A stretch of DNA of 64,000 bases, from contig VGZT01000006.1 in NCBI GenBank assembly GCA_016872495.1, positions 1 through 64,000 of the forward strand. Direction: 5' to 3'. Every line of letters starts with the position of its first letter. Within the stretch, counting starts at the first letter, position 1. Source of the DNA: SAR202 cluster bacterium. GTDB lineage: Bacteria > Chloroflexota > Dehalococcoidia > Lucifugimonadales > Lucifugimonadaceae. The position numbers and the translations under genes are program-made. The notes under the pieces were generated by a model. The model saw nothing but the letters and a program-made list of their open reading frames with translations. It had not been told where the DNA came from and did no database searches. Below are positions 17,826-24,586 of the stretch, piece after piece.

Positions 17826-18300
17826 GTGGACTACCCGAAACATGGCCAGAAGCCTTTTGACCCTCCGCACTGCCACCCTCGTGACGGGATAACGACGGCA
17901 AGGATCCTGATCGTCGATGGCTCCAAGGAGGTCCGCGCCGCGCTGGGAACGCTACTCGCGCTACAGGGCCATAACGTCTCTTACGCCGAGGACGGGGCCG
18001 GAGTGGCCGCGCTTGTCCGGGCCGACCGACCTGCATTGATCTTGCTCGACATCCTGAAACCCGGCCTCGAAGGCTTCGGTGTGCTGGCTCGGCTCAGGGC
18101 AGACCACACGACCCGGAACATCCCCGCAACCGTTATCACCGCCCTGGCAGACGTCGCCGATCAGTCGCGCGCTGTCTTCGGGGGCCATCGACTACACCGG
18201 GGGGCCGTTCTCGGGAACGGGCGTGCCTGCCCGGGTCGATCTGGCGCTGCGCCGCCGGAGTGGATCATCCGGCGATGCGTCATGGGGTCTGGAGGCCCGG
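17826..18300 (+). pseudogene. Receiver-domain (response regulator) gene, frameshifted
   Basis: The first frame from GTG 17826 gives a receiver fold: ARILIVDGSKEVRAALGTLL, LILLDILKPGLEGFGVL with the phosphoacceptor Asp, and IPATVITALADVADQSRA. The next frame then supplies the last strand and helix, LSSGAIDYTGGPFSG and VPARVDLALRRRSG. The shift lies near 18168-18180. The acidic pocket is degenerate (DG for DD), and the conserved Lys of the YxTKPF motif is a Gly (YTGGPF). Loss of the key Lys besides the frameshift argues for real decay. The second frame runs without a stop into enolase paralogue 2. Confidence 0.65.
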
Positions 18301-18311
18301 ATGTCGTTTCC

Positions 18312-18317
18312 TATAAT
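18312..18317 (+). promoter_or_regulatory. -10 element TATAAT, leaderless promoter candidate
   Basis: A consensus TATAAT ends 7 nt before ATG 18325. Transcription would then begin at or next to the start codon, giving a leaderless mRNA; no Shine-Dalgarno is seen before that ATG. No good -35 is visible 17 nt upstream. Confidence 0.5.
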
Positions 18318-18324
18318 GCGCCGC

Positions 18325-19506
18325 ATGCCCAACGACCTCAGCTTCGCGATCAGCTCGCTGGATACGTTTCACCTCTCGTTCCCGCTCAGGTACTGGGAGG
18401 AGTACCGCTCCGACGAAGCTCAGAAGGGTGACCGCTTCGAGTTCACCCCGGGTTGGCAGACCGTGTATGCGCGCAACATCGAGACGGCTCTCTGCCGGGT
18501 AAAGTTCGCCGACGGCACGACCGGCTGGGGGGAAGTCAATGCCCCCATCGGTCCCGAAGTCGTCTGCCTGATCTGGAAAAACATCGTCGCCCCGGTCGTG
18601 GCGGGGCGCACTTTTGAATCGCCCACCCGCCTCTGGGACTTCCTCTACGACGCTCAACGCGGTCGGGGCTACGCGTCGGGCTACTGGCTGGATGCGCTGG
18701 CGGGAGTCGACCTCGCGGTCTGGGACGCGCTTGGCATCCGCAACGGCAAGCCGGTGGCCGCGCTCATCAGGCCCGACCCTCGAAAGCGGATCCCCGTCTA
18801 TCTCTCCGGAATTCGGAAGGCAACCCTGGGCGAGAGGGTCGCCGAGATAAACAAGTGGTACGACGACGGGCTGCGTGGAGCCAAGATCTTCCTCAGCCCG
18901 GACGTCGACGCCGGGCTCAAGGAACTCGACGGCCTCCGCGCGGGTTGTCCCAGGTTGAAAAACTGGATGGTTGACTTCTTGTGGATGCTGCCAGCCGCGA
19001 CTGCTGCCAGGGTCAAGGCCAGTTTCGGAGACCGGGGCGTCGTTTTCCTGGAATGCCCCCTTCAGCCTGAAGATCTGGCGGGCCACCGCGAACTGGTCGG
19101 GGAGCCAGGCGCACCGATCGCCCTGGGCGAGCATTTTCGGACGCTATACCAGGCGCGCGACTGGTTTGGCCCGCCGCGCGCGCTCGACGTCTACCAGCCG
19201 GACATCGGCCGTACTGGCATCAGCGACGGGATTCGGCAACTTGACGCGGCCTACGACGCCGGCCTTGAAGTGACCCCGCACATGGGCAACGGGATGGCCG
19301 TCTTCCAGGCCGCAACCCTTCATTTCAGCGCGTTGTGCCGGCCCAGCCATCTGCAGGAGTTCCAGTACGGGCACTACCGGATGAGCAGGGACATCGCCGA
19401 TTCAGCATGGGTCTATCACAACGGGGCATTCGATCTTCCCGATCGACCCGGCCTGGGCGTGACGGTCCGCCCCGAGGCGCTCGAACCATTCGCTGCCCGC
19501 ACCTGA
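18325..19506 (+). CDS. Enolase-superfamily enzyme, paralogue 2
   Basis: Predicted acid-sugar dehydratase or racemase-type enzyme with a substrate I cannot name. The 393-aa product has a capping domain (1-120, with CRVKFADGTTGWGEVNAP), and barrel ligands MVDFLW (Asp), FLECPLQPED (Glu) and ALGEHFRT (Glu). The first-strand lysine is in RGAKIFLSPD. PHMGNGM is the catalytic-His region near the C-terminus. ATG 18325 is preferred over 18301 and 18316 because a TATAAT box ends 7 nt before it. The sequence is only distantly related to paralogues 1, 3, 4 and 5, so it probably has another substrate. Confidence 0.85.
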   Translation: MPNDLSFAISSLDTFHLSFPLRYWEEYRSDEAQKGDRFEFTPGWQTVYARNIETALCRVKFADGTTGWGEVNAPIGPEVVCLIWKNIVAPVVAGRTFESPTRLWDFLYDAQRGRGYASGYWLDALAGVDLAVWDALGIRNGKPVAALIRPDPRKRIPVYLSGIRKATLGERVAEINKWYDDGLRGAKIFLSPDVDAGLKELDGLRAGCPRLKNWMVDFLWMLPAATAARVKASFGDRGVVFLECPLQPEDLAGHRELVGEPGAPIALGEHFRTLYQARDWFGPPRALDVYQPDIGRTGISDGIRQLDAAYDAGLEVTPHMGNGMAVFQAATLHFSALCRPSHLQEFQYGHYRMSRDIADSAWVYHNGAFDLPDRPGLGVTVRPEALEPFAART

Positions 19507-19571: not shown

Positions 19572-19771
19572 AGTGAAACCCATTCTGTCCCGATGGTCCA
19601 GGCGCTAGTCTGCCGCGACCGGGCAGTCGAAGGCGCCGAGGCGCCACCCAGGACCACCTTCAGCCCTGTCTCCGTCCATCCTTCTGTCCGTCCGTGCTCC
19701 CAGCGCGCTTCCGCGTTCGCCGACTCTCCGGAATCGGATTCGCGACCAGGGGTTCCAGGAGGAAAAAGTCG

Positions 19772-20008
19772 ATGAAGACCATGTCCGCCGATGGCGACCG
19801 ACTGTTCTCGACCACGCTCCGGCCCGGCTACGTGTCACCTGCGATCGCCCTCGATGCCCGCCTGGTGGGCCAGGAGGAGTGGGGCCTCCTCGTCCTGCTG
19901 GGCGCGGTGGCCTTTGCCACTCTCGCATACGTGGGCTACTGCACCTTCAGTGGCGGCGGCTCGTCCTTCTCGCTGAGCCTTTCAGGGGTCTCCGGGACCT
20001 GCAACTAG
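19772..20008 (+). CDS. Precursor-like peptide of a putative RiPP/bacteriocin cassette
   Basis: A 78-aa peptide preceded by the strongest Shine-Dalgarno in the window (AGGAGG, 8 nt before ATG). Layout: polar leader-like part (1-36, with LRPGYVSPAIALDARLVGQE), one hydrophobic span (37-57, WGLLVLLGAVAFATLAYVGY), then a Ser/Gly-rich tail TFSGGGSSFSLSLSGVSGTC-N with Cys57 and Cys77. I recognise no family. Followed by an exporter and a PqqD-protease fusion, it looks like a precursor whose C-terminal part is released by intramembrane cleavage and exported. Product and activity are inference. A plain small membrane protein is the alternative. Confidence 0.6.
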   Translation: MKTMSADGDRLFSTTLRPGYVSPAIALDARLVGQEEWGLLVLLGAVAFATLAYVGYCTFSGGGSSFSLSLSGVSGTCN

Positions 20009-20015
20009 AGCCGGT

Positions 20016-20045
20016 GTCCGGGGCCGGCCTCCGCTGGCCCCGGAC
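20016..20045 (+). promoter_or_regulatory. Strong intercistronic hairpin after the precursor-like gene
   Basis: GTCCGGGGCC (20016-20025) is perfectly complementary to GGCCCCGGAC (20036-20045) with a 10-nt loop. It lies 8 nt after the peptide stop and 16 nt before the ATPase start. There is no U-tract, so it may act as attenuator or 3' protector giving the peptide mRNA higher abundance than the transporter mRNA. Confidence 0.7.
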
Positions 20046-20061
20046 CTTGCGCAGAGGAACC

Positions 20062-20880
20062 ATGGAAACGCTACGCATGCATCGGCCTGGATCAGAGGCA
20101 AGGTCGACCGCCCCGGTGCTGGCGATCAGGGGTGTCTCCTTCGGCTACGACCGGACCCTCGCCGTGAAGTCGCTGGATCTGCGCGTCGAGCCTGGCCAGG
20201 CGGTCGGCCTGGTCGGGCCGAACGGCTCAGGGAAGACGACCACCCTTCAGATCTGCGCCGGCTTGCTCAGCCCGGTCCAGGGCACGCTGGACTATGGCTC
20301 CGGGGTAACCACAAGAGCGACCCTCGATGATCGGCGGCGGCTCAGCTACGTACCGGACACGCCAGAAGGGTTCGGCCACCTGAGGATCAGGGAGTACTTC
20401 CAGCTCTACGGCGCCCTTCAGAGGGCCGACCGCGGCTACGTCGATCGCGCACTCGCGTTCGGCGAGGTACTCACGCTGCCCACCGGCGCCCCACGCCTGA
20501 TCGGTGAGCTGTCGCACGGAAACCGTCGCAAAGTCGCACTCGCGGCTGCAGCAGCGCTGATACGTCCACTGACGCTTATCGACGAAGCGACCGCCGCGTT
20601 GGATCCGGAAACGGTTATCGCGCTCGAGTCGCTCATATCCACCTTCTGCTCTAGAGGCCTTGCCTTCCTCGTGGCAACCCAGGATGTGTTCTTTGCCGAA
20701 CGAGCCTGCGACCAGGTCTACATCCTGGTCGGCGGGCAGATCGTGGACTCGGGTTCACCGGCGGCACTCGTGCGTCGCTGGGATGAGCAAGACCTCAGGG
20801 GAGTTTTCGGAAATGTCACTGGTTTCGGTACAGCCGCTGACCGGATTGAGGCAATTATGGGTTCAGTTGCTCCTGAGTGA
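20062..20880 (+). CDS. ABC transporter ATP-binding protein (peptide-cassette exporter)
   Basis: ATPase subunit of a two-gene ABC exporter. The 272-aa product has Walker A GPNGSGKTTT, an unusual signature LSHGNRRKV (LSGGQ expected), Walker B LTLIDEATAALD, and a switch position reading VATQDVFF, Gln in place of the usual His. The class matches CcmA/bacteriocin-type exporters with a separate permease. ATG 20062 follows AGAGGA. The 3' end overlaps the permease gene by 68 nt, so both subunits are coupled. Deviations in signature and H-loop may lower ATPase rate or mark a divergent clade. Confidence 0.85.
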   Translation: METLRMHRPGSEARSTAPVLAIRGVSFGYDRTLAVKSLDLRVEPGQAVGLVGPNGSGKTTTLQICAGLLSPVQGTLDYGSGVTTRATLDDRRRLSYVPDTPEGFGHLRIREYFQLYGALQRADRGYVDRALAFGEVLTLPTGAPRLIGELSHGNRRKVALAAAAALIRPLTLIDEATAALDPETVIALESLISTFCSRGLAFLVATQDVFFAERACDQVYILVGGQIVDSGSPAALVRRWDEQDLRGVFGNVTGFGTAADRIEAIMGSVAPE

Positions 20881-22249
20881 CGCCCGGCGCGTGTCACGCA
20901 CCCTGAGCCGTATCTTCAGGACGAATCCGCTGGTCTTGACGGCCCTGCTCACCGCGGCACTCACGATCGGGATTCTGGGGGCGTGTTCAGGAGACGTCCT
21001 GGCCGCGCTGGCGTCGAGCCGGGCACACGGACTCACAACACTTACCGTCGCGGTGGTTGCGGTTGGCGCCGCACTCGGGTTTGCGGGCGCGAGCGGTAGC
21101 CCCCGACTTTCCGCCTTCGATGGCCAGTTCCGTGCGTCGCCTGTGCCCCGCCACCTGATTGCAGTCCCGCTGCTCCTGGTCCCGGTGGCTCTCATGCTTG
21201 CCGCCCCGTCCCTCGTAATTTCTCGCGCGTTCCTCGATGCATACGACTCCCTCCAGGCTGAGCCCTCCCGGGTCTGGGCCCTGCTATTCGCGGTCTGGTT
21301 CGTCAACGTGGGGATCGCTGGCGCAGCCACGTCTGCGCTGTTCTCCGGTGATCGGCAAGCTCGTCTCGTGGGGGTCCTTTTCTTGATATCCATCGCACTG
21401 GTCGGCCTGGGCGGGTCGACGCTGGTTGGGGCGCCGGCGTGGGCATGGCTTTCGCCATTCGTACCGTGGGGCCCAACGGGGACTCCCGCTGGGCTGGTAC
21501 GCCCTGATGAGTGGATCAGCTGCGGCGCCGCGTTGGCTGGTGGAATGGCCGCCTGCGCAGCCCTGGTCTGGGCGAAGGCCCGAGAGCCAGGATCCAGTAT
21601 CCGATTCCGATCCCAGATGCTGCCTCTGCCGAGTCACGGCGCTGCGCTTGCCCTCGGTCAATCGCTGGCAGCTGCCGCGCTCAGGTCACCGCGGGCCAGA
21701 TGGTTGCTGTTCGCGCCCGCGCTGGGCGCGCTGGCGGGCCTGGCCATTCGGGCTTCGGGCGAACGCGACGGCCTCCTCGGGAGTTTGCTGGTGGCCGGGC
21801 TTTTGCTGGCTGCCGGGGAGGTGGCCATCTCCCTTTCTCGCGAGTACCGGCTCGGCCGCTGGCTGGCCGATTCGTCCCCTGCAGCGCCATGGAGCAGAGC
21901 ATTCGGGTGGATTCTGGGTGCGGGCGCAGTTGCGCTCGGGCTCGGACTTTTAGCCGTCTCCCCACTGCTGCTGCTGGGAGGCGCAGGCCTCAACGAACTT
22001 GCCTGGATCGGAAGCTCCACGTTCGCGGTCGTATTCGCGGGCCGGCTGATCCCCTGGGACCACCGGTCTAACGGGATGCAATTTCTCAGTTCGATCACGG
22101 CGGGCGTCTGCGTCATCGCCGCGCTCGCGCTGGACGTCTGGCTGGTTGGGGCGCTCGGGCCCGGGGCGGGCCACACGCTCGCGCTGCTCACGACCGGGCT
22201 CTCGGCCTCCGCCGCCGTTCTCGGGATGGAAGTCGGTAAGGATCGATGA
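20813..22249 (+). CDS. ABC transporter permease (peptide-cassette exporter)
   Basis: A 478-aa protein with about 11-12 hydrophobic helices and no soluble domain, consistent with the membrane part of the exporter encoded just before it. After an N-terminal cytoplasmic helix (RQLWVQLLLSDARRVSRTL) come paired helices such as LVLTALLTAALTIGILGA and LIAVPLLLVPVALMLAAP. No motif identifies a substrate. ATG 20813 is chosen for the GGGGAG before it; the gene starts inside the ATPase gene and its stop overlaps the next start (ATGA, 22246). Function rests on context. Confidence 0.7.
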   Translation: MSLVSVQPLTGLRQLWVQLLLSDARRVSRTLSRIFRTNPLVLTALLTAALTIGILGACSGDVLAALASSRAHGLTTLTVAVVAVGAALGFAGASGSPRLSAFDGQFRASPVPRHLIAVPLLLVPVALMLAAPSLVISRAFLDAYDSLQAEPSRVWALLFAVWFVNVGIAGAATSALFSGDRQARLVGVLFLISIALVGLGGSTLVGAPAWAWLSPFVPWGPTGTPAGLVRPDEWISCGAALAGGMAACAALVWAKAREPGSSIRFRSQMLPLPSHGAALALGQSLAAAALRSPRARWLLFAPALGALAGLAIRASGERDGLLGSLLVAGLLLAAGEVAISLSREYRLGRWLADSSPAAPWSRAFGWILGAGAVALGLGLLAVSPLLLLGGAGLNELAWIGSSTFAVVFAGRLIPWDHRSNGMQFLSSITAGVCVIAALALDVWLVGALGPGAGHTLALLTTGLSASAAVLGMEVGKDR

Positions 22250-23067
22250 CGGATCTCGACACGGAAGTTCGAATCCCTCCGGGCGTGGAGCTGCGCGACG
22301 GCCGGCTCCTGGACAACGTGCTCGGCCAGACCTACCCGCTTTCCGGTTCGGCCTGCGCCTTTCTTGAGCTGATGCTGCAACGAAGGCGCCTCGGCGAGAT
22401 TGCAACGATCGTCGCCGAACGCTTCGGAGTCGAAGAAGAGACCGTTGCCACGGACCTCATTCAGTTCGTGGAGACATTGAACTCCGGCCATCTGTTGAAC
22501 GTGCGCGGCGGCTCGCCCACGCTACGATTCCGCCGGTGGGCAGGACAGCTCGCGTACTCGGTGGTGACCCGGTCATTTCCCACCCGGCGCGTCACCCGGC
22601 ATGCGGTGTCCGCTCATGGGCTCCTGCCACACCTCGCATCGATCTCAGCCATTCTCGGGAAGCACACGATGCCAGTCTGGCTGCTGCCCGCGGCCGGATT
22701 GCTGGCTCTCGGCACCCTGGCGAAGCTGGAACTGGCGGCCGTGCTGGCGCCCGCCATCCTCGCGGTCTTCCTCTGCCTGGTGGTTCACGAGTTCGGGCAT
22801 GCCCTGGCGATCTGGAGGGAAGGCGCGGGCTCATACGTCGTCACCGCGGGCTGGAACGTGGCGATTGTGCACTCGGTCGCCCGTCCGGCGCCGCTCATTC
22901 ACGCCGGCGGCCCGGCGCTGGCCGGCGCGGTAGGCGTCTGTGCCGTGATCGTCTCGCTGGTCGCGGGCAGCCCGCAGTCGGCCAGCTTTGCGGTGCCGTT
23001 TCTGCTCAACCTGGCCGGCCTGACGGTGTTCTCTAAGGATGGTCGCTCGCTCGCCAGAGCCCTTTAG
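22246..23067 (+). CDS. PqqD-like (RRE) domain fused to an M50-type membrane metalloprotease
   Basis: Two parts in 273 aa. Residues 8-85 form a PqqD-type winged helix, the RiPP recognition element that binds leader peptides (VRIPPGVELRDGRLLDNVLG, FLELMLQRRRLGEIATIV, TDLIQFVETLNSGHL). Residues about 140-273 are hydrophobic helices holding the zinc motif HEFGH (181-185) and a later N...KDG (255-266) resembling the degenerate NxxPxxDG ligand of site-2 proteases. Such a fusion would bind a leader and cut the peptide within the membrane. It is translationally coupled to the permease. Proteolysis is predicted from motif and context, not shown. Confidence 0.75.
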   Translation: MTDLDTEVRIPPGVELRDGRLLDNVLGQTYPLSGSACAFLELMLQRRRLGEIATIVAERFGVEEETVATDLIQFVETLNSGHLLNVRGGSPTLRFRRWAGQLAYSVVTRSFPTRRVTRHAVSAHGLLPHLASISAILGKHTMPVWLLPAAGLLALGTLAKLELAAVLAPAILAVFLCLVVHEFGHALAIWREGAGSYVVTAGWNVAIVHSVARPAPLIHAGGPALAGAVGVCAVIVSLVAGSPQSASFAVPFLLNLAGLTVFSKDGRSLARAL

Positions 23068-23081
23068 AAAGGTTGCCTCAG

Positions 23082-23372
23082 ATGACGCGTACGTTCATCA
23101 AGTCTGCCCTCATCGGTACGGTCTCATTCGGTGTGATTGCATATTGCCTGGTCCTCGTGCTCGCGGTGCTCTCGCAGTCCGGGCGCGTGGCGGATGTCGG
23201 CCTCCGGCTGGGTCCACTCGAGATCTTCCAGGTCTGGGTCGACGAAAGCGGCCACCACTTCACGATCGGCACAGGCATCGCTCTTGTCGCAGCCCTGGGG
23301 GGCGTCGTCAACGGAATCGGAGCCGTGATCCTGGCGAGGCAGCGCATCCGTAGTATGCGTGCGGCCCACTGA
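23082..23372 (+). CDS. Small two-helix membrane protein of the peptide cassette
   Basis: A 96-aa protein with two transmembrane helices (about 10-33, IGTVSFGVIAYCLVLVLAVL, and about 66-88, GTGIALVAALGGVVNGIGAV) separated by an extracytoplasmic-looking loop with VWVDESGHHF. No family is recognised. It lies 14 nt after the PqqD-protease gene in the same direction and is the last gene of the cassette. Plausible roles are immunity protein or accessory of the exporter; neither is shown. ATG 23082 is preferred over TTG 23073 because GAAAGG precedes at the proper range. Confidence 0.6.
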   Translation: MTRTFIKSALIGTVSFGVIAYCLVLVLAVLSQSGRVADVGLRLGPLEIFQVWVDESGHHFTIGTGIALVAALGGVVNGIGAVILARQRIRSMRAAH

Positions 23373-23443: not shown

Positions 23444-24586
23444 ATGAAGATCGAGTCAGTCAGGTCCCTTTTGATCGACCGCTACCTGTTCTGCGAAATC
23501 ACGACCGACAGCGGCCTGAAAGGGGTCGGAGAGTCCGGTGCGTGGGGCTTCCTGGAAGCCTCGGCGGCCGCAATCGACAAGTTTGGCAGGTACCTGGTCG
23601 GCAAGGACCCGCTGCGGATAGAACACCACTGGAACTTCATGTACCGGTGGGGCTACTTCCGCGGGGCGGCGATCATGGGGGCGATCTCGGCCATTGACAT
23701 AGCGCTGTGGGACATCGCAGGCAAGCACTTTCAGGCCCCGGTCTATCAGCTGCTGGGCGGGAAGGTGCGTGACAGGGCCCGGGTCTACTACCACGTGTTT
23801 GGCGACACTACAGAAGTGCTGGTCAAGGGCGTGGTCGACGCCAGGAAGAAAGGGTTCACTGCGGTCGGTCACCTGACCCCGTTCCTCGACGAGCCACATC
23901 ACATCCCCTATTTCAAGACGCACGCCGCGAAGATCGAGGATGCCATCGATACCGTGCGCAGGTACCGCGAGGCGGTCGGCAACGAAGTCGACCTCTGCAT
24001 CGAGATCCACCGGCGGCTTACCCCGGCGGAGGCGGTCCAACTCGGGCTCGGAATCGAAAAGTACAAGCCGTTCTTCTTCGAGGATCCGGTCACGCCCGAC
24101 AACATCGACGAGATGGGGTACGTGGCTTCGAAGATCAACATCCCGATCGCGACCGGCGAACGGTTTAACTCGCTCTGGGATTTCGACATGGCACTCCGTC
24201 GCGACGCCGTTCAGTATGTTCGTCCCGACGTTTGCATGGTCGGCGGGATCTCGGCGACGAAGAAGGTGGCCGCCCTCGCAGAGGCGCGTCACGTAGGCGT
24301 AGTGCCGCACAACCCGTTGAGCCCGGTCAGCACCGCCGCCTGTCTCCAGATCGCTGCCTGCATCCCGAACTTCGCGCTGCAGGAGTACCCGACCGGCGAG
24401 GAAAAGCCGCCGAAATCCGAAATCGTTGCCGGCGCTGCCCAGCACGACGGCAAGGGATTCCTCATCATCTCCGACAAGCCCGGAATAGGCGTGGAACTAC
24501 GGCCGGACGCGGCCAGGAAGTGGCCATACAAGGTTCGCGACGTCGATACTCGGCTGCATGCCGATGGCTCGGTCTTTGACCAGTGA
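23444..24586 (+). CDS. Enolase-superfamily enzyme, paralogue 3 (galactonate dehydratase-like)
   Basis: Predicted sugar-acid dehydratase. The 380-aa sequence shows DIALWDIAGKHFQAPVYQLL in the cap-barrel junction, metal ligands CIEIHRRLTPAEA (Glu instead of the usual Asp plus catalytic His), FFEDPVTPDN and IATGERFNSLW, and the second His in VPHNPLSPVST. This pattern follows the D-galactonate/D-gluconate dehydratase branch, but the true substrate may differ. ATG 23444 begins the normal MKIESVRS strand; GTG 23432 with GGGGAG upstream is an alternative that adds four residues. NIPSNAP follows downstream in the same direction. Confidence 0.88.
   Translation: MKIESVRSLLIDRYLFCEITTDSGLKGVGESGAWGFLEASAAAIDKFGRYLVGKDPLRIEHHWNFMYRWGYFRGAAIMGAISAIDIALWDIAGKHFQAPVYQLLGGKVRDRARVYYHVFGDTTEVLVKGVVDARKKGFTAVGHLTPFLDEPHHIPYFKTHAAKIEDAIDTVRRYREAVGNEVDLCIEIHRRLTPAEAVQLGLGIEKYKPFFFEDPVTPDNIDEMGYVASKINIPIATGERFNSLWDFDMALRRDAVQYVRPDVCMVGGISATKKVAALAEARHVGVVPHNPLSPVSTAACLQIAACIPNFALQEYPTGEEKPPKSEIVAGAAQHDGKGFLIISDKPGIGVELRPDAARKWPYKVRDVDTRLHADGSVFDQ

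Follow-up and report, generated by a model that had tools for sequence, protein, structure and literature searches.

A recurrent Chloroflexota gene cluster with YxxP precursor peptides and a fused RRE-M50 protein suggests peptide production and export of RiPP logic

The five same-strand genes at positions 19772-23372 (+) of the window, the 64,000-nucleotide stretch of SAR202 cluster bacterium DNA analyzed here, encode a small peptide, an ABC ATPase, a permease, a protein combining an RRE domain with an M50 protease-like domain (RRE-M50), and a two-TM (2-TM) membrane protein. With a probability of about two in three for the explanation as a whole, we consider them a cluster for making and exporting a peptide by RiPP logic, in which the RRE would read the leader, the fused M50 domain would cut, and the ABC pair would export. 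The docking and cutting model is based on the fold and sequence of the RRE, the site-2 protease (S2P) relationship, YxxP leaders from three lineages, conserved gene order, and precursor homology found by a jackknife HMM, as well as, by analogy, on RRE-S2P leader removal in daptides and RRE-presented membrane cleavage in linear polyphosphorylated peptides (LPPs).

The same ATPase-permease-RRE/M50-2TM order was found in four further Chloroflexota genomes: the soil MAG CF_106 (VBHO01000099; G415), a genome of the same class as the window genome (G824), the Thermogemmatispora MAG HOG45 (G380), and a Thermogemmatispora-type genome with the same genus number as G380 (G396). The RRE-S2P fusion, which the earlier note had taken as new, is already known from daptides, in which the fusion protein DapP/MpaP removes leaders; new are the YxxP precursor family, its Cys tail, and the lack of modifying enzymes next to the cluster. 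The cluster thus looks like a stripped-down variant of RRE-S2P peptide clusters that is real, recurrent, and functionally suggestive.

Organization of the cluster

The gene boundaries proposed in the earlier note hold within a few codons, and the very strong Shine-Dalgarno sequence described there for the peptide gene is present (Table 1). The ATPase, permease, RRE-M50, and 2-TM genes overlap or almost touch. At the peptide-ATPase junction, the predicted hairpin has counterparts in G415 (z -1.5) and G396 (z -2.95), and none is predicted in the damaged G380 copy; such a structure would suit a system that, as is usual, needs its precursor in excess of the machinery. A consensus scan returned neither a promoter nor an intrinsic terminator. 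The window peptide, permease, and 2-TM protein match no Pfam family. Weak homologs of the permease occupy the same place in G415 and G824, and its predicted model, with a pLDDT of 38, was set aside.

Table 1. Coordinates of the cluster features in the window and of long RRE-M50 loci in other Chloroflexota
Feature	Coordinates	Strand	Basis or remark
Shine-Dalgarno AGGAGG	19757..19762	+	9 nt 5' of the peptide ATG
Precursor peptide, 78 aa	19772..20008	+	Homologous ORFs precede the ATPase gene in G415, G380, and G396
YVSPAI, leader motif YxxPx[IV] of the RRE-binding type	19829..19846	+	Sequence; same motif in G415, G396, and G380
13-bp GC hairpin without U tract, between peptide and ATPase genes	20016..20045	+	RNA fold z -4.27
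ABC transporter ATPase, 272 aa	20062..20880	+	Pfam ABC_tran 1.8e-21; 47% identity to the G415 ATPase
ABC permease-like membrane protein, 478 aa	20813..22249	+	At least 9 hydrophobic segments; overlaps the ATPase gene
RRE-M50 protein, 273 aa	22246..23067	+	ATGA overlap with the permease gene
PqqD-type RRE domain, residues 1-86	22246..22503	+	Pfam PqqD 5.5e-9; fold match to lasso B1 6jx3
M50/site-2-protease-like membrane domain	22666..23067	+	HEFGH 22786-22800, DG 23038-23043; profile match to S2P 3b4r
Two-TM membrane protein, 96 aa from ATG; candidate immunity or accessory protein	23082..23372	+	Homologs in all four other loci
Long RRE-M50 loci	L034:5717-8032; L067:1187-2959; L104:1342-2706; G415 C79:13490-14515 (L107)

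Domains of the RRE-M50 protein

RREs are known to serve as docking sites for modifying enzymes and for a small number of leader peptidases. Within the RRE-M50 protein, residues 26-84 give a match to Pfam PqqD (PF05402) with E 5.5e-9 and 36.7 bits against a cut-off of 23.4, the kind of match by which the earlier note had proposed that its PqqD-like RRE be judged; the protein is the sole PqqD match in the window genome. In the AlphaFold model, the first 86 residues follow the beta3-alpha3 order of RREs, with pLDDT mostly 80-88. Among solved structures, this part of the model is closest to leader-bound lasso RREs (6jx3, Z 13.5; 5v1u, Z 12.9), and its superposition on 6jx3_B (lasso B1) aligns 81 residues with an rmsd of 1.2. 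With a sequence score over the curated cut-off and the beta3-alpha3 fold, this is a PqqD-type RRE domain.

The M50 half has no Pfam match over cut-off, including that of PF02163. Around HExxH, a profile built from the family aligns with the site-2 protease of Methanocaldococcus jannaschii (3b4r; E 5.9e-5). All five family members have HExGH, and the three that are full-length with an intact C-terminus also have the distal DG. These data agree with the protease half that the earlier note had read from HEFGH, and the combination of HExxH and distal DG in a polytopic membrane domain with S2P homology argues for membership in the M50/site-2 protease family. Confidence in the M50 half of the AlphaFold model is low (pLDDT about 55-70).

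A family of precursor peptides

The window precursor consists of a leader (residues 1-36) containing Y20-V-S-P23-A-I25, a predicted TM helix (~38-57), and a tail with Cys57 and Cys77. In three of the four other loci, the ATPase gene is immediately preceded by homologous small ORFs: a GTG-start ORF behind AAAAGGAGGTGAAG in G415, two ORFs in G380, and three tandem ORFs in G396. The G415 Shine-Dalgarno-start region, AAAAGGAGGTGAAGAA-GTG, equals that of the window peptide in Shine-Dalgarno strength. The shared anatomy comprises the leader element P-x-[IV]-x-L-x-x-R (PLVALSTR in one precursor), one hydrophobic span of at least 19 residues, and a tail composed of a Cys that ends the span in a [YW]C context, a Gly-containing stretch, and a second Cys located one to four residues from the C-terminus (C-termini GTCN, CKLYY, ACK, and GCSK).

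A jackknife HMM built from all the other precursors, without that of the window, ranks the window ORF first among 1,276 six-frame segments (E 2.5e-5), and a model from the G415 precursor alone also places it first of 1,276 (E 0.0046). In reverse searches, the G415 and G396 peptides rank first in their own loci. Weak extra precursor matches on two other contigs (G415 C55 and G609 C89) proved to be an unrelated membrane protein.

Lasso-type RREs recognize YxxP as their leader motif, of which LxxP is a known variant (PMC12710340), and in the LPP family LppB binding requires both Y and P of the leader YxxP (PMC13381572). Five precursors carry YxxPx[IV]: YVSPAI in the window, YRPPTV in G415, YVAPVV in the third G396 precursor, and YLTPAI and YVAPAV in G380. 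The second G396 precursor has AxxP, lacking the Y of YxxP, and the first has LxxP in a region that looks frameshifted. In shuffled leaders, the bare motif arises in 3-7% of cases and the extended YxxPx[LIV]xLxxR in 0.03-0.04%. The binding of the peptide leader by the RRE, proposed in the earlier note, gains from a leader that carries the motif bound by such RREs; binding itself we infer. Between two Thermogemmatispora-type precursors, 11 of 27 changes are synonymous against about 26% expected, in copies that are decaying.

Recurrence and integrity of the cluster

Between the window and G415, the ATPases are 47% identical, the RRE-M50 proteins 32% (2e-33), and the 2-TM proteins 33% (1.5e-6). 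Homologs of the 2-TM protein lie immediately 3' of RRE-M50 in 4/4 of the other loci, and such repeated adjoining of a Pfam-less 2-TM protein and RRE-M50 is hard to get by chance. Because distant genomes share the gene order and homologous precursors, the cluster is more than a chance arrangement. A small peptide and ABC pair accompany RRE-M50 in three of the four loci, in line with the recurrence asked for in the earlier note; the fourth, G824, has the operon, but neither its 9.3-kb contig nor the rest of the assembly contains a recognizable precursor.

In G380, precursor 1 and RRE-M50 are each interrupted by an in-frame TAG, and precursor 2 has a 5-bp insertion; in G396, precursor 1 and RRE-M50 both look frameshifted. 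Both Thermogemmatispora-type copies (L033 and L035) therefore seem to be decaying by different lesions; assembly error is possible, and the events differ between the two. Since these copies are damaged and G824 is without a precursor, intact complete clusters number two, those of the window and G415.

The genome search covered one genome per species and about half of GTDB species, with short-pattern scans only outside Chloroflexota, which miss distant relatives. Relatives were found neither among the other 249 genomes of the window's order nor on plasmids or viral contigs. Pattern scans of the genome collection with a single window protein returned nothing, and those with the alignment returned only two already-known loci. 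Weak profile matches, where inspected, belonged to other families, namely Ktedonobacteria-like PQQ clusters, discrete RREs, ordinary M50 proteases, or long DapP-like RRE-M50 proteins. PQQ-type clusters with a discrete PqqD were observed in Ktedonobacteria-like genomes (L069, L070, and L071).

Genomic context

Around the window cluster lie genes for MFS, aldolase, two enolase-type enzymes, and NIPSNAP, and around the G415 cluster those for hydrolases, an acetyltransferase, and LuxR. The two mandelate racemase/enolase-superfamily genes, at 18211-19506 and 23444-24586 of the window, flank the cluster. In a relative (G013, L117), their orthologs, 58% and 75% identical, enclose other genes, including three for MFS-like proteins and no part of the cluster. 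As the flanking genes carry other cargo there, we take the cluster to be a variable insert and not an operon that the family conserves. The window genome contains many stretches similar to these flanking genes.

Comparison with known systems and alternative explanations

Like the window cluster, daptide clusters have an RRE fused N-terminally to an intramembrane S2P, hydrophobic precursors, tandem copies, and ABC transporter genes. The window fusion is probably a distant relative of DapP, judging from the three family members that reach E 6.6e-7 to 1.9e-5 against NF041824 (daptide_HExxH), the E 6.6e-7 member being covered from the RRE through HExxH. A divergent daptide cluster, in which the RRE-S2P would cut the hydrophobic precursor and enzymes encoded elsewhere in the genome would modify its C-terminus, could account for these likenesses; we nevertheless hold it to be very improbable. 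The window protein does not match NF041824, and the other members score 10.7-28.8 bits against a cut-off of 300. Daptide precursors have an ELExMEAP leader and an invariant C-terminal Thr, whereas the precursors described here have a YxxPx[IV] leader, end in N, Y, or K, and carry two conserved Cys in the tail, which is a feature of the window family. Adjoining the window and G415 clusters there is no oxidative decarboxylase, aminotransferase, ADH, methyltransferase, or DUF-RRE, and DapB/C/D genes are absent from their neighbors. By the tests applied to protease score, precursor features, and adjoining genes, the cluster is not a daptide. The cluster could also be a housekeeping operon for membrane-protein quality control or transport, with the small ORF as a transporter subunit. 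Single-span small subunits do occur in transporters, and the peptide has no known bioactivity, but the sporadic occurrence (the window alone among 250 genomes of the order), the accessory position between two conserved enolase-type genes that hold other cargo in a relative, the tandem divergent small ORFs in G396, and the RRE and YxxP make this explanation highly doubtful.

Eep cuts enterococcal pheromones out of the membrane, and the cluster could similarly be a peptide-signal system, its pheromone cut from the membrane by the S2P and sensed via LuxR-type regulators. Two LuxR-type HTH genes directly follow the G415 cluster (L032:4659-6268, with membrane N-terminal parts), and two directly precede the G824 cluster (L085:6937-7587, about 105 aa each). 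However, no LuxR-type gene lies directly beside the window cluster, and regulators are common in RiPP clusters anyway, so we regard this explanation as unlikely.

Judged by gene content, the cluster is not of the lasso, epipeptide, or LPP kind either. The RRE is closest by fold to lasso B1 and the leaders conform to the lasso pattern YxxPx[L/V/I/F/A], whereas lasso systems use a B2 transglutaminase-like protease and a C cyclase, the window protease is M50, and the precursor has a TM helix; neither a B2 protease nor an asparagine-synthetase-like cyclase occurs among the neighbors in the window and G415. In LPPs, the RRE presents the YxxP leader to a membrane signal-peptidase-like protease, with leader cleavage shown (PMC13381572), and no macrolactam cyclase is involved, as in the window cluster; there, in contrast, the protease (LppS) is of SpI type and separate from the RRE (LppB), a kinase is present, and the phylum is different, and the neighbors in the window and G415 yielded no Pfam match for an SpI-type protease or kinase. 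Other M50 enzymes that act on RiPP precursors are EpeP in epipeptides and TglG/TmoG in pearlins (PMC10885120). Epipeptide systems (EpeX/YydF with the M50 protease EpeP/YydH) resemble the window cluster in their small peptide, M50 membrane protease, and ABC pair, but employ a radical SAM epimerase, whereas in the window family the RRE is fused to the protease, no member matches NF058609 (YydH/LiaK), and no radical SAM gene is found among the neighbors in the window and G415. The earlier note had already pointed out the absence of an adjacent radical SAM or cyclase gene. No paper naming PqqD together with site-2 protease or peptidase M50 was found in the open-licence literature.

Proposed mechanism and significance

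Under the leader-reading and intramembrane-cutting explanation, the 78-aa precursor would insert into the membrane with a single span and leave its leader in the cytosol, where the N-terminal RRE of the protease would bind YxxPx[IV]xLxxR, as motif and fold suggest. The fused M50 intramembrane protease may then cleave the precursor, either at its TM segment or inside it, and release a C-terminal peptide, whose two conserved Cys could form a disulfide. Judging by position in the cluster, our guess is that the product is exported, or removed from the membrane, by the ABC ATPase-permease pair, and that the 2-TM protein acts in immunity or as an accessory factor. The product is most likely a narrow-spectrum antimicrobial, the main alternative being a cell-cell signal peptide. 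Counted against this explanation are the G824 locus without a precursor found, the one AxxP precursor, the damaged Thermogemmatispora-type copies, the low-confidence M50 model, and a permease without a recognized family. The RiPP-like system envisaged in the earlier note holds in its anatomy and general idea; a RiPP in the strict sense would carry a post-translational modification in addition to cleavage, and no modifying enzyme adjoins the cluster.

We propose only tentatively, at somewhat below even odds, that these loci form a distinct Chloroflexota class in which RRE and YxxP serve only intramembrane proteolysis and export, with no enzyme that modifies side chains or backbone, the product being an S2P-released, disulfide-closed peptide. 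If true, a single chain that both reads the leader and cuts in the membrane would represent the minimal form of RiPP logic and offer a tractable two-protein test of an RRE steering an intramembrane protease. The loci add a precursor family overlooked by profile-based annotation.

Long RRE-M50 proteins

Other Chloroflexota encode long RRE-M50 proteins (Table 1). Neither a precursor nor ABC genes were seen around the one at L034. These proteins, 455-772 aa in length, score 80-176 bits against DapP (cut-off 300), far above the window family.
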